From Janthinobacterium silvisoli (lineage in GTDB: Bacteria > Pseudomonadota > Gammaproteobacteria > Burkholderiales > Burkholderiaceae_D), in the NCBI RefSeq assembly GCF_014200725.1, contig NZ_JACHCL010000001.1, forward strand, positions 2,108,001-2,172,000: DNA of 64,000 bases, read 5' to 3'. Under the pieces are notes generated by a model. It did not search any database and was not told the origin of the DNA. It saw only the letters and a list, made by a program, of their open reading frames with translations. The translations under genes and the position numbers were made by a program. Position 1 is the stretch's first letter; the number at the start of each line of letters is the position of its first letter. Shown here in pieces: positions 21,879 through 26,585 of this stretch.

Positions 21879-21983
21879 CAGCGCACTTTTCCTCGCTGTC
21901 CGGCTCACGCCAGTAATGAAATAAACTATTCCGGCAAAAAACTTGCCGGATTGTGACAGATCAGTGATAATACGTCTCGCGTT

Positions 21984-22070
21984 GCCGGGATGGCGGAATA
22001 GGTAGACGCACGGGACTCAAAATCCCGCGCTGGAGACAGCGTGCCGGTTCGATTCCGGCTCCCGGCACCA
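21984..22070 (+). tRNA. tRNA-Leu(CAA)
   Basis: An 87-nt cloverleaf: the acceptor stem pairs GCCGGGA with TCCCGGC, followed by discriminator A and an encoded CCA. The anticodon arm CGGGA-CTCAAAA-TCCCG gives anticodon CAA. A long variable arm (CGCTGGAGACAGCG) marks it as a class II tRNA, as expected for leucine. The T-loop GTTCGATTC is normal. It reads UUG codons. Confidence 0.95.
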
Positions 22071-22092
22071 CCAAACATTGTAGTAGTAAAAG

Positions 22093-22127
22093 AAAGCCAC
22101 TAAATTCAGAATTTAGTGGCTTTTTTT
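22093..22127 (+). terminator. Terminator after tRNA-Leu
   Basis: AAAGCCACTAAAT-TCAGA-ATTTAGTGGCTTT, a 13-bp perfect stem, followed by more T. Confidence 0.9.
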
Positions 22128-22130
22128 ACG

Positions 22131-22461
22131 TCCATTAATTCTTTCACTCAACTTGTCGAAAGAAAGACACTGTCACTTTCATACCTAGTGACCAGCACGA
22201 AGAAATCTTATCGCCTAGCAAATAGGAAAAGAAAAGAATTATAAATTGTCAAATAAATTAATTTAACAATAATAATGTGTGGTTGTAAATTAAATTGTCT
22301 TCAAATCAATCTTTAATTTACATTTTTATGATGCATACTGATGTATATTAGTAATAATTTCATCTTCTTTCCTTTCCAGCAAGCATATAAGCGGCGCGAT
22401 GTCACGCATGAGGCATGGCAGCAGCACACTTATTAATCAGTCTATATCACACCCGGTGTTT
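22131..22461. other. AT-rich non-coding patch with a long inverted repeat
   Basis: About 330 bases without a convincing gene and markedly AT-richer than the rest of the window. It contains a perfect 10-bp inverted repeat, GTAAATTAAA (22285-22294) and TTTAATTTAC (22312-22321), with a 17-base loop. It lies between a tRNA terminator and a lower-GC three-gene cassette, a position typical of island borders and of silencing targets for H-NS/MvaT-type proteins. No integrase and no second copy of the tRNA 3' end were seen. The promoter of the cassette is probably here. Confidence 0.6.
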
Positions 22462-23523
22462 ATGAATTCCATATCTGAACTGTCTTCTTCCACGAGCCAA
22501 GGCAATTTCGCCTATTTCCGCGAACTGAATGCGCGCTTGGGCACCCTCAAGGCGGCTAATTACGATATTGTTTCGAAATGCAATTTGCGCTGTGAAGGCT
22601 GTTTGTTCTTTGAGGGCGAGGAAAACGAAGGACATGAGGATTGCCGTTCGCTCGCGGAATGGGATGCGCTGTTCGCCGCCGATGCTGCACGCGGCGTTAC
22701 GCTCGCCTATCTGGCCGGTGCAGAGCCTAGCCTGGTGCCGGAGCGGATACGCGCGGCCCAACGCAGCATCCCCCACGGGATAGTATTTACCAACGGTACG
22801 ATACGCTTACCCGACGATATTTTTTACCGTATCCATATTTCCTCGTGGGGTGTCGATGAAATCGGCAGCTCCTTGCGCGCCGGCGATGTGCTGACCAAGG
22901 CATTGAATAATTATCGCGATGATCCACGCGCTGTGTGCGTCTTCACCATCACGTCCCTGAATATCGGTCAGATCATGATCATGGCTGAGCTTGCCAATAG
23001 TCATGGCCTACCGCTCACCTTCAGTTATTTCAGCCCCACTACCCGTTATCTCGACAAATTGGAAAACAAGGTAGATAACGATAAAGCCTATTTCCGCATC
23101 AGCAGTGCCACGCAAAGCCTGGCCTTGACGCAAACCGACTTCGCCAAGGCCCGCGCAGAAATTGTGTGCGCCATGCAAGCTTATCCAGAAACGGTGCAAT
23201 ACTCCCTCAGTTATGACGACTGGGTCACGGGGAAGGAACTTTACGATATCGACCCTGTCACCAAGATCGCGAAAAATTGCGGCTTTCGCATCACAAAGCA
23301 AGTGCACGTCCATGTCGACCATCAGCCTGGCAAGGGTAAATGCTGCAGTTCGAATATCGATTGCAGCAACTGCCGCGCTTACGCGATGGGGCAATCGACC
23401 TACTTGTCGCGCATTCGCGACGCCGTCAGAAAACCGGAAGAGCTGGCGAAATGGATCGAAGTAAGAGAAATCTGGGCCAAACTGTTCCTGAACACCGATA
23501 AATCGACTGCCGCCAGCCTGTAA
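22462..23523 (+). CDS. Radical SAM protein with C-terminal cysteine cluster
   Basis: 353 residues if started at the ATG at 22462; an ATG at 22399 would add 21 residues, and neither has a good ribosome site. The [4Fe-4S]-SAM motif is C-x3-C-x2-C (C40, C44, C47 in 'CNLRCEGC'). A barrel follows with 'HISSWGVDEIGSS' and 'TFSYFSPTTRY'. A second group of cysteines (C273, C294, C295, C301, C304) resembles an auxiliary cluster such as SPASM. The substrate is unknown; the fold pattern recalls HpnH-like and peptide-modifying enzymes. It is first in a tight row with an MBOAT acyltransferase 4 bases downstream and an SGNH-like protein. GC content is lower than that of its neighbours outside the cassette. 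Confidence 0.85.
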   Translation: MNSISELSSSTSQGNFAYFRELNARLGTLKAANYDIVSKCNLRCEGCLFFEGEENEGHEDCRSLAEWDALFAADAARGVTLAYLAGAEPSLVPERIRAAQRSIPHGIVFTNGTIRLPDDIFYRIHISSWGVDEIGSSLRAGDVLTKALNNYRDDPRAVCVFTITSLNIGQIMIMAELANSHGLPLTFSYFSPTTRYLDKLENKVDNDKAYFRISSATQSLALTQTDFAKARAEIVCAMQAYPETVQYSLSYDDWVTGKELYDIDPVTKIAKNCGFRITKQVHVHVDHQPGKGKCCSSNIDCSNCRAYAMGQSTYLSRIRDAVRKPEELAKWIEVREIWAKLFLNTDKSTAASL

Positions 23524-23527
23524 TGTA

Positions 23528-24958
23528 ATGAGCTTTACCTCGTACTGGTTTACCCTGGCCTTCTTGCCATTATCGGTGTATGTCTTCCACCGCCTGATCT
23601 CAAAAAGCCAGCTCCATCTGCTGCTTCCGCTGCTCACTTCATTATTATTTTATTATTTAAATGATGCGCACAACCTGTTCTTGTTTTGCGCATCAATCGG
23701 CGTCAACTGGCTGATGGCCCGCGCCATTGCCAACAGCAATGAGAAAAAAATCTATCTGGCGCTGGCCATCGCTGGGAATTTATGTTTTCTCGCCTTCTAC
23801 AAGTACGCCAAAGTCTTCATGGTATCCGGGACGGCGATTCCAGCATTGCCCCTTGGTATCTCGTATTTCACGTTTACCCAAATAGCCTTCCTGGTCGATA
23901 CGGCACGGGGACAAGCCAGAAGCACCAATCCACTGGAATATGCCTTATTTGTCGCCTGGTTCCCCCATCTCCCGGCCGGCCCTCTGCTGTCGCACAAGGA
24001 TATGCTGCCACAATTCATGGCAGCGCCGGAAAAACTATCCGCCCTGCGTCCGGCGCCGCGTGATTACGCCGTCGGTATCACCCTGTTTGCGATCGGTCTA
24101 TTTAAAAAGGCTTGTATTTCCCCCATTTTCCAGAATGCGCAAGGCGATGTCTTCCTGCGCGCAGGCCAAGGTGATCCCATCGGACTGGTCGAGACCTGGA
24201 TAGCATGCCTGGGATTTTTGTTTGAAACCTATTATGACTTTTGCGGCTATTCGGAAATGGCGATGGGCATTAGCAGGATGTTCGGCATCCATCTGCCGGT
24301 CAATTTCCATGCACCTTTCAAATCTTCCAGTCCGGTGGAATTCTGGACCCGCTGGCATATCACGCTGGGCGCCTTCATGCGCGACTACCTGTATCGTCCC
24401 CTGACCAGAAAACGCCAGGTATGGCGCCATTATGCGGCCCTGTTCATAGTGATGATGGCCGTCGCAATCTGGCATGGCGCTACCATTCCACTGCTGATCT
24501 TTGGCGTCTATCAAGGACTGCTGGTCACGGGTAACCACGCTCTGCGGCGCCTGAATATCATTTCGCGCCAGGGAGGTAACTTACAGCATTGGGCTGGCCG
24601 TGTCTTTACGCTGGCGGCCATCGCCTTTTCCGTCAGCCTATGGGCGACACCGAATTGGGACGAGGCCTGGCACGTCATCCTTGGTTTGCTGGGTGCGGGA
24701 CAAGGTTCAGTATGGCCCTATAACCTCACCGGCATTATTGCCATTCCCGGTGCGATTGCCTTCAACTGGCTTGCTCCGTCGCTGATCGACTTAATGTCCA
24801 GGGAACTGCCTGCATGGAGCGTACAACTGAAAAAGGCAACTACCAGCAAGTGGATCTGGAAACCTAACCTGGCCTGGGCGGCAGCCGTTGCAGTCGCGCT
24901 CTGCCTGGCGCTCATTAATCTATCCGGCCTCAAAGAGTTCAAATATGCAGGTTTTTAA
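23528..24958 (+). CDS. MBOAT-family O-acyltransferase (AlgI/DltB-like)
   Basis: 476 residues with about 11-12 membrane helices. Family marks: 'FETYYDFCGYSEMAMGISRMFG', 'PVEFWTRWHITLGAFMRDYLY' (H277) and the catalytic histidine in 'AIWHGATIPLLIFG' (H316). Such enzymes carry acyl groups across the inner membrane to polysaccharides or other cell-surface acceptors, as in alginate acetylation (AlgI) or D-alanylation (DltB). The next gene overlaps its end by 14 bases and encodes an SGNH-like protein with a signal anchor, the usual partner class (AlgJ/AlgX, DltD). No polysaccharide polymerase or glycosyltransferase is next to it, and a radical SAM gene precedes it, so the acceptor is open. Confidence 0.93.
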   Translation: MSFTSYWFTLAFLPLSVYVFHRLISKSQLHLLLPLLTSLLFYYLNDAHNLFLFCASIGVNWLMARAIANSNEKKIYLALAIAGNLCFLAFYKYAKVFMVSGTAIPALPLGISYFTFTQIAFLVDTARGQARSTNPLEYALFVAWFPHLPAGPLLSHKDMLPQFMAAPEKLSALRPAPRDYAVGITLFAIGLFKKACISPIFQNAQGDVFLRAGQGDPIGLVETWIACLGFLFETYYDFCGYSEMAMGISRMFGIHLPVNFHAPFKSSSPVEFWTRWHITLGAFMRDYLYRPLTRKRQVWRHYAALFIVMMAVAIWHGATIPLLIFGVYQGLLVTGNHALRRLNIISRQGGNLQHWAGRVFTLAAIAFSVSLWATPNWDEAWHVILGLLGAGQGSVWPYNLTGIIAIPGAIAFNWLAPSLIDLMSRELPAWSVQLKKATTSKWIWKPNLAWAAAVAVALCLALINLSGLKEFKYAGF

Positions 24959-26021
24959 AAATAACTTGTCCATCGGCCGCTTTTTCGTCTCCATTTTTCT
25001 CATTGCCGCCGGATTGACATTCCTGATTGCCGGACTGATCTTTGTCGTAGACCCCTATGCCATCTGGCGCCATCAAGCAATCCAGCGGATCAATGAAATC
25101 AAGCTGGAAACCACTTCTGCAAGCCAGGTGGGCACGGCTGTCTTGCGCAGTGCGGTGCATCCCCCCGATGTCCTGATTCTCGGTTCTTCGCGAGTGCGGC
25201 GCGGTTTCAACGAAACGTTTGCATCCCAGCTTTACAGGAGCAGCGTCCAGGTGGCGGGAATCAATGCCCTGCAGCTATCGAATATCAAGGATCTATTTTC
25301 CACCTTCAGGCAACGTGCGCAGATCAAAAAACTGTATTTGGAAGTCAATTACTTCACTTCCAATGCCTGTACATTGAAAAATGAAGCTCTGGCAAATAAA
25401 AGTGATCTTGCTGATCCGCTGCATTATTTTTCACCGCAAGATGCTATCGTTCACAGTTTACGGACATTAAAAATAAATCTGTTCCCTCTGCGCTCTTTCG
25501 ATAACTATTTCGATGTGCAAGGACGTTACCATGACGACCCAAGCGAAGGGATGTCCCGCACAGGCGGTATGGAAACATATGAATCGCGCTACAACCGACT
25601 TTTTCAGAGCATGACAAGCCGCTGCCAACGCCAGGCAAGTAATGCTGCCGATACCAAAGATTTATCGGACATCATCAGACTGGCGCAAGCCAGACAGACA
25701 GAGATCATCTTGCTGATTTTACCGGTCAGCGCAAGGTGGCAAACACGCATCCAACAGGGGGGGCTTTCACCACAAGTTACACAATGGAAGAAAAATATTA
25801 TCTTGGTCGCATCACAATTTCACGTGCCGGTGCTCGATTATGAAGAGCATAGCGATGTGAATGCCCTCGCTGAAAATAGCAATCATGCAATGCCCATGTT
25901 TTGGGATGAAACTCATTTTTCCAACCGTTTGGGAGACTACATATTGCGCGACATGCAATACGCCAGCCATGTGGCCACGATACACAATAATCGCCAGGGC
26001 AGCCTAACGCCCCAGCCTTAG
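24945..26021 (+). CDS. SGNH/AlgX-like periplasmic protein, MBOAT partner
   Basis: 358 residues from the ATG at 24945, which overlaps the MBOAT gene and has CAAAGAG upstream. A single N-terminal membrane segment (about 15-37) would anchor it facing the periplasm. The nucleophile block reads 'LILGSSRVRRGF' (S81 or S82) and the distal block 'DETHFSNRLG' (D321, H324), so a Ser-Asp-His triad of the SGNH type is available. Sequences between are not recognisable. By analogy with AlgJ, AlgX, PatB and DltD it would take the acyl group delivered by the MBOAT protein and place it on a surface molecule. This is the least GC-rich gene of the cassette. Its 3' end overlaps the convergent GNAT gene by 18 bases. 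Confidence 0.8.
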   Translation: MQVFKNNLSIGRFFVSIFLIAAGLTFLIAGLIFVVDPYAIWRHQAIQRINEIKLETTSASQVGTAVLRSAVHPPDVLILGSSRVRRGFNETFASQLYRSSVQVAGINALQLSNIKDLFSTFRQRAQIKKLYLEVNYFTSNACTLKNEALANKSDLADPLHYFSPQDAIVHSLRTLKINLFPLRSFDNYFDVQGRYHDDPSEGMSRTGGMETYESRYNRLFQSMTSRCQRQASNAADTKDLSDIIRLAQARQTEIILLILPVSARWQTRIQQGGLSPQVTQWKKNIILVASQFHVPVLDYEEHSDVNALAENSNHAMPMFWDETHFSNRLGDYILRDMQYASHVATIHNNRQGSLTPQP

Positions 26022-26585
26022 TTCCAGCCCCGCCTTCACCGCTTCCCACTCCGTATCGATCATGCTGAAACGCACCGAGTTGCGCTTGCGGCCATCGGGC
26101 ATGATGCGCTCGTGGCGCACGATGCCTTCCTGGACGGCGCCCAGGCGCAGGATGGCGGCGCGCGATTTTTGGTTCAGTTCGTCGGTGGTGAATTGCACGC
26201 GCACGGCGTGCATGACTTCAAACGCATACGTCAGTAGCAATAACTTCGCTTCCGTGTTCACGCTGGAACGCTGCACCGAAGCGCTAAGCCAGGTGTGGCC
26301 GATTTCCATCTTGCGGTTAATCCTGTCGATCTTCCAGAAACGCGTACTGCCGACAATGGTTCCCGTGGCCAGTTGCACGATGACGAAAGGCATGACAGTG
26401 CCCGCGCGCTGGCCTTCCAGCGCGGTGGCGATGTAGCGGTCCATGGTGCCGGGACCGGGCACCACCGTCACGGTCATATTCCACAGTTCGCCATCGGCGG
26501 CCGCTTGCAATAGTTGCGGTCCATGTTCAAGCGACATGGGGATCAGGGCGACCGTGTTGCCGGTCAAGGTGGGTTGTTGGAGCAT
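26004..26585 (-). CDS. GNAT acetyltransferase, RimJ/RimL type
   Basis: 193 residues from the ATG at 26585; a TTG at 26606 is possible. The order 'GTIVGSTRFWKIDRINRKMEIGHTWLSASVQRSSVNTEAKLLLLTYAFE' and 'VQFTTDELNQKSRAAILRLGAVQEGIVRHER' is that of the RimJ/RimL branch, which acetylates protein N-termini or small amines; the acetyl-CoA loop is degenerate relative to QxxGxG, as is usual in this branch. The target is unknown. It converges on the SGNH gene with overlapping 3' ends, marking the right edge of the low-GC cassette. Confidence 0.85.
   Translation of the reverse strand: MLQQPTLTGNTVALIPMSLEHGPQLLQAAADGELWNMTVTVVPGPGTMDRYIATALEGQRAGTVMPFVIVQLATGTIVGSTRFWKIDRINRKMEIGHTWLSASVQRSSVNTEAKLLLLTYAFEVMHAVRVQFTTDELNQKSRAAILRLGAVQEGIVRHERIMPDGRKRNSVRFSMIDTEWEAVKAGLELRLGR

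Follow-up and report, generated by a model that had tools for sequence, protein, structure and literature searches.

A radical SAM, MBOAT and SGNH gene cassette at a tRNA-Leu site of Janthinobacterium: a possible device for envelope acylation with a tailored acyl group

Introduction

Three packed genes behind a tRNA-Leu gene of Janthinobacterium silvisoli encode a radical S-adenosylmethionine (rSAM) protein, an MBOAT acyltransferase and an SGNH protein, and raise the question of what radical chemistry would contribute to an acylation system. The locus lies in a stretch of 64,000 nucleotides (contig NZ_JACHCL010000001.1, positions 2,108,001 to 2,172,000; hereafter the window), and the positions below are those of the window. 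A preliminary description of its sequence had proposed a dedicated three-gene system for surface acylation or peptide modification, in which the rSAM enzyme acts on the acyl donor or acceptor. Our analysis favors, at about even chances, an envelope-acylation device in which the rSAM protein tailors a thioester-bound acyl group, which is then relayed by the MBOAT and the SGNH protein.

Organization of the cassette

The features are as follows, where carriers are the six Janthinobacterium genomes that have the rSAM gene.

21984..22070, + strand: tRNA-Leu (CAA), found by ARAGORN; same position in the six carriers, anchor of a variable site
22140..22461, strand not assigned: AT-rich region with short conserved blocks in the six-carrier alignment, presumed promoter region
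22462..23523, + strand: rSAM protein, 353 aa; CxxxCxxC motif (C40/C44/C47) and invariant C273/C294/C301/C304
23528..24958, + strand: MBOAT acyltransferase, 476 aa; H277/H316 and C-terminal FKYAGF (residues 471-476)
24945..26021, + strand: SGNH protein, 358 aa; N-terminal helix (membrane anchor), S82 and D321/H324

The rSAM and MBOAT genes are separated by 4 bases, and the MBOAT and SGNH genes overlap by 14 bases. The GC content per kb is 0.465-0.540 in the cassette versus 0.577-0.610 in the 2 kb on either side. The packed, low-GC arrangement behind tRNA-Leu that had been described was confirmed by gene calls, GC content, and ARAGORN. In an Rfam search of positions 21900-26200, only the tRNA reached the gathering score.

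The MBOAT-SGNH pair as an acyl relay

The MBOAT protein matched PF03062 with 75.1 bits (cut-off 27), and its terminal FKYAGF is an exact fit to the acyl-shuttle hexapeptide FXYXXF, the role of which is described for DltX and PatA in a passage of PMC12148441. For comparison beyond the genus, one genome per species was scanned, and the best 80 of 171 places with rSAM relatives were kept. In 15 of these 80 loci an MBOAT gene lies no more than 3 kb from the rSAM gene, and in none at 3-9 kb; MBOAT genes are few in the source genome (three in 5.9 Mb). All 15 rSAM-linked MBOATs fit FXYXX(F/Y), three of them ending in Y.

In the SGNH protein, the catalytic Ser82 and Asp321-x-x-His324 are intact, and a block-I Ser and a block-V DxxH were present in a nearby protein at each of the 11 MBOAT loci outside Janthinobacterium. 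An SGNH profile searched against PDB chains gave no match at E values up to 1. Because the shuttle motif and the catalytic residues are both kept, the pair is very likely an envelope acyl relay, as the earlier reading of a surface-acylation pair had it. The relay activity and an acyl-tyrosine intermediate are predicted from these motifs.

Features of the rSAM protein

The CxxxCxxC motif and the radical SAM fold are both present in the rSAM protein. In an alignment of 35 homologues, drawn from the best 120 of 215 relatives found, C273, C294, C301, and C304 were invariant, and these C-terminal cysteines probably bind an auxiliary cluster of the twitch/SPASM type. The residues listed beforehand for the three proteins were right except for C295, which is not conserved among the 35 sequences.

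A fold search with the model of a near-identical homologue (P0001) retrieved SkfB (Z 18.6), SuiB (17.2), anSME (17.0), BlsE (16.9), and a viperin-like protein (16.8), and also GDGT-MAS (14.1) and lipoyl synthase (12.4). In a rival reading, modeled on ribosomally synthesized and post-translationally modified peptides (RiPPs), the rSAM protein would modify a peptide that the MBOAT-SGNH pair then acylates. A RiPP maturase of the SkfB kind is defined by an N-terminal RiPP recognition element (RRE) domain. The rSAM model has a single helix (residues 5-26) ahead of the first core strand and no RRE-like N-terminal domain. The intergenic space is too small for a precursor gene, and no conserved small open reading frame was apparent by eye in the leader of about 320 bases aligned among the six carriers, the rest of the genome not being searched. 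With neither a precursor apparent at the cassette nor an RRE-like domain in the model, the RiPP system was rejected as the leading explanation, and the peptide modification suggested in the preliminary description appears very improbable.

Partners of the rSAM family

The rSAM family is rare. Counting the source genome, it was found in 2 of 399 genomes of the order (E cut-off 1e-20), and in 4 of 369 genomes of the class and 4 of 398 genomes of the phylum sampled (E cut-off 1e-40). It spans Pseudomonadota, Myxococcota, and a few other phyla.

Genes were called around the 80 loci and then clustered, and one partner was assigned per locus. The largest class was a TPR plus alpha/beta-hydrolase protein (19 loci, three by weak matches: L037, L078, and L079), followed by a TPR plus LpxL-like protein (17), MBOAT-SGNH (15), ketosynthase and/or acyl carrier protein (ACP) (6), small partners labeled GNATa and GNATb (5 each), HlyC (1), and LuxI with PhyH (1). 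In a strict test with six module models (E <= 1e-40, within 5 kb), exactly one module was present at 63 loci, none at 17, and two at no locus. P450 genes were found in 20 loci, NodU-type carbamoyltransferases in eight, and TauD in four.

PF03279 was found in six of 13 whole LpxL-like partners scanned at E up to 1 (best 3.6e-7), and of four C-terminal pieces, one scored above the PF03279 cut-off, one below, and two had no match. Hydrolase_4 was found in two of 14 scanned TPR/hydrolase partners; a PDB profile search gave weak lipase matches (E 0.0013 and 0.0019), and four C-terminal pieces matched no family. The TPR parts of the hydrolase and LpxL-like partners cross-matched each other's models with weaker E-values. 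Among six later loci outside model building, L167 carries a TPR/hydrolase protein (5e-82), L169 a P450, a carbamoyltransferase, and a TPR-LpxL piece at the contig end (4e-38), and L153 an ACP with TauD.

The dedicated radical SAM-MBOAT-SGNH system that had been proposed was rejected because 65 of the 80 related rSAM loci lack an MBOAT. The neighborhood search set beforehand thus went partly against that proposal, yet the rSAM tree shows the MBOAT-SGNH pair on separate branches: Janthinobacterium, Pseudomonas, a Brevundimonas/Erythrobacter group, L041/L076, and the long-branched L090. This tree (79 rows, without the fragmentary L081 and L091) came from a quick search with SH-aLRT support only. 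The MBOAT label requires five changes on it, at least three of them forced by well-supported (starred) branches, and all partner labels together require 18 versus 50.9 when shuffled; gains and losses are not distinguishable in these counts. The rSAM-P450-carbamoyltransferase set is accompanied by TPR-LpxL at six loci (L036, L044, L046, L053, L074, and L077) and by MBOAT-SGNH at two (L041 and L076). Recruitments were not counted from an MBOAT tree because its free relatives were solely the best matches to the window MBOAT and its branches were long; it held no characterized AlgI or WssI, and the name 'AlgI' on MBOAT relatives is source annotation only.

Several neighborhoods were observed in addition. 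In three Brevundimonas loci (L031, L038, and L060), a convergent gene for a B12-binding radical SAM protein lies beside a P450-MBOAT-SGNH-rSAM operon (PF02310 and PF04055 in the L031 copy, the same cluster in the other two). Seven loci of Myxococcota or deltaproteobacterial metagenome-assembled genomes (MAGs) (L082-L087 and L089) have two tandem rSAM relatives, with an ACP nearby in five of seven and a ketosynthase in four of seven. In a Xanthobacteraceae MAG (L047:6041-9233), an rSAM relative appears to share an operon with genes for a LuxI autoinducer synthase and a PhyH dioxygenase, and the set possibly makes a radical-modified quorum signal. Gene orders with more distant rSAM proteins were ACP-TauD-rSAM-nonribosomal peptide synthetase on a Methylomagnum plasmid (34% identity), PaaA-type protein-rSAM-PaaI near an acyl-homoserine lactone synthase in Burkholderia stagnalis (26%), and PaaA-type protein-rSAM-MaoC in Alteromonas (24%). 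Members of a distant rSAM branch (L154, L155, and L162) adjoin PaaA-type proteins, which were identified by PF05138 in L154 and L162 and by annotation in L155. Two of the three loci also have PaaI or MaoC, and the copies in Burkholderia and Alteromonas are plasmid-borne.

Tailoring of the acyl donor or the acceptor

LpxL-like proteins, LuxI, HlyC, MBOAT, and ketosynthases have unrelated folds and different acceptors, and draw on a common acyl-ACP or acyl-CoA donor. Since the recognizable partners share an acyl thioester, we infer that the rSAM protein tailors the acyl donor, the acyl thioester being the simplest common substrate, which P450, TauD, or PhyH oxygenases would tailor further. The distant rSAM relatives beside ACP-TauD or PaaA-type, PaaI, and MaoC proteins show a similar pattern. 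In this sense, the earlier proposal of an rSAM enzyme acting on the donor or the acceptor was supported, with the evidence leaning to the donor side. In the favored scheme, the rSAM protein would modify the acyl group in the cytoplasm while it is bound to ACP or CoA. The MBOAT would carry the tailored group through the membrane to Tyr473 in the FKYAGF peptide at its C-terminus. From there the SGNH protein, anchored in the membrane, would take it on Ser82 and pass it to an extracytoplasmic acceptor.

Several observations weigh against this scheme. None of the three genes that make up the cassette encodes an ACP, an acyl-ligase, or a P450. The top fold matches of the rSAM protein lie within about 2 Z units and point to no acyl substrate. 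No recognized partner was found at 11 of the 80 loci, and the later loci L154, L155, and L162, which hold distant relatives, matched none of the modules. The TPR plus alpha/beta-hydrolase protein is a candidate acyltransferase that is not proven, and GNATa and GNATb (10 loci) were counted as unassigned, having no significant acyltransferase match (best PF00583, E 0.093, for one GNATa). The module models derive from recurrent neighbors of the same 80 loci, so the enrichment near rSAM genes is partly built in; related loci are also not independent, while mutual exclusion is less affected by the origin of the models. We leave the donor scheme at even chances because the commonest partner and two others are unproven acyltransferases and the fold matches choose no substrate.

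The rSAM protein could instead make the acceptor, a small amine or alcohol acylated by differing acyltransferases. In Janthinobacterium this molecule would be exported first, and the MBOAT-SGNH pair would then acylate it, possibly with plain acetate. The LuxI-type partner and the carbamoyl-, sulfo-, and methyltransferases (the latter two identified by eye or from matches under the cut-off) would fit the tailoring of a small core molecule, and the fold neighbors BlsE and the viperin-like protein act on nucleosides or nucleotides, as judged in part from entry titles. However, MBOAT-SGNH relays deliver outside the cytoplasm and LuxI and HlyC act inside it, which makes a shared donor easier to picture than a shared acceptor; the cassette also has no exporter gene among its three genes. 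We regard an acceptor-making rSAM protein as fairly unlikely.

Distribution and selection within Janthinobacterium

The rSAM gene was found in six of 40 Janthinobacterium genomes, namely the source genome and five others, whose copies are 89-97% identical; the nearest named relative of the rSAM protein, that of Janthinobacterium sp. S3T4, is 97% identical. Another genome (G034) has only a distant rSAM relative (34% over part). The order tRNA-Leu, rSAM, MBOAT, and SGNH is identical in the five other carriers. As the preliminary description had called for, strains with and without the cassette were compared at the tRNA. The GNAT gene that follows the cassette in the window starts about 70 bases past the tRNA in G002 and about 150 bases past it in G032, and these sites are thus empty. 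The remaining non-carriers (20 examined in all) have other cargo at the site or no recognizable flanks.

The cargo inserted on the 3' side of tRNA-Leu (CAA) varies among Janthinobacterium genomes. One genome (G020, L144) has an island headed by an integrase-like gene and another (G006, L137) has integrase-like fragments, all recognized by eye. An AT3-type acyltransferase (L137:9482-10663, - strand; PF01757, E 1.9e-23) lies at the same tRNA site, which may trade acylation genes of different kinds. Three types of mobile element were considered and rejected for the cassette: an att-flanked tRNA element (the 22 bases of the tRNA 3' end have no second copy in the window at up to 3 mismatches), phage cargo (a single weak viral match, 26% over residues 23-152), and plasmid cargo (15 plasmid records matched, the best with 34% identity).

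The site varies between species, one having an island with an integrase and another integrase-like fragments together with an AT3 acyltransferase, and this would suit a cassette of three independent genes landed at a tRNA hotspot, the MBOAT-SGNH pair doing ordinary O-acetylation and the rSAM protein something else. The many rSAM loci without an MBOAT fit this too. The gene order is, however, constant in all six carriers, and the association recurs on separate branches (Pseudomonas, Brevundimonas/Erythrobacter, and others), which makes independent cargo quite improbable.

The cassette is under purifying selection. The ratio of nonsynonymous to synonymous change (dN/dS) was 0.05-0.06 for rSAM and 0.08-0.16 for MBOAT against the other carriers, and 0.18-0.25 for SGNH, the fastest-evolving of the three proteins, against four carriers. 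Compared with the nearest carrier (G012), synonymous change was saturated in SGNH while the rSAM dS was just 0.28; one SGNH allele, that of the window or of G012, was thus probably swapped by recombination. Against the four other carriers, two upstream genes had lower dS values (0.27-0.64) than rSAM (1.1-1.2), which indicates an older or an exchanged cassette. A fast SGNH protein beside constant donor-side proteins is the pattern expected with a variable surface acceptor, and the acceptor would then be a variable surface glycan. Divergence of the SGNH protein but not of the rSAM protein also speaks against an rSAM protein that makes the acceptor.

Comparison with known systems

To our knowledge, and from passages of PMC12148441, the characterized MBOAT-SGNH relays move simple groups (acetyl, D-alanyl). 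If the rSAM protein works on the donor side, cell surfaces would be decorated with made-to-measure acyl groups. A wider view, in which the rSAM family chemically alters acyl chains bound to carrier proteins or CoA and is plugged into any available acyltransferase, so that envelope polymers, lipids, and signals bear undescribed radical-made acyl groups, is tentative and rather doubtful. The mutually exclusive partners offer a comparative handle on the function of the family. Among open-licence PubMed Central papers, no report of a radical SAM-MBOAT-SGNH operon or of this rSAM family was found; the relay half is of an already known kind, and its coupling to an uncharacterized rSAM family appears to be new.

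Among radical SAM enzymes, the protein resembles SkfB and the twitch/SPASM group in its CxxxCxxC motif, its C-terminal cysteines for a probable auxiliary cluster, and its best fold match. It differs from SkfB in that its model has no RRE-like domain and no precursor gene is apparent, and the two are 17% identical where their structures align. The radical SAM enzymes lipoyl synthase and GDGT-MAS act on acyl or alkyl chains and are a precedent for radical chemistry on unactivated chains; both are among the fold matches, but they rank below SkfB and are not specifically closer to the rSAM protein.

On the relay side, the only two solved sequences matching the MBOAT are DltB-type (E 1.3e-23 and 1.5e-23). 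Membership in the Dlt system of teichoic acid D-alanylation was nevertheless rejected, as the MBOAT scored 153.7 bits against the NCBIfam DltB cut-off of 375 and the SGNH protein 22 against the DltD cut-off of 150. The three-gene cassette also lacks DltA, DltC, and DltX, and its shuttle motif is fused to the MBOAT. PatA-PatB of Gram-negative peptidoglycan O-acetylation, AlgI, and WssI-type systems are MBOAT-SGNH systems as well, and the cassette differs from them in its clustered radical SAM gene.

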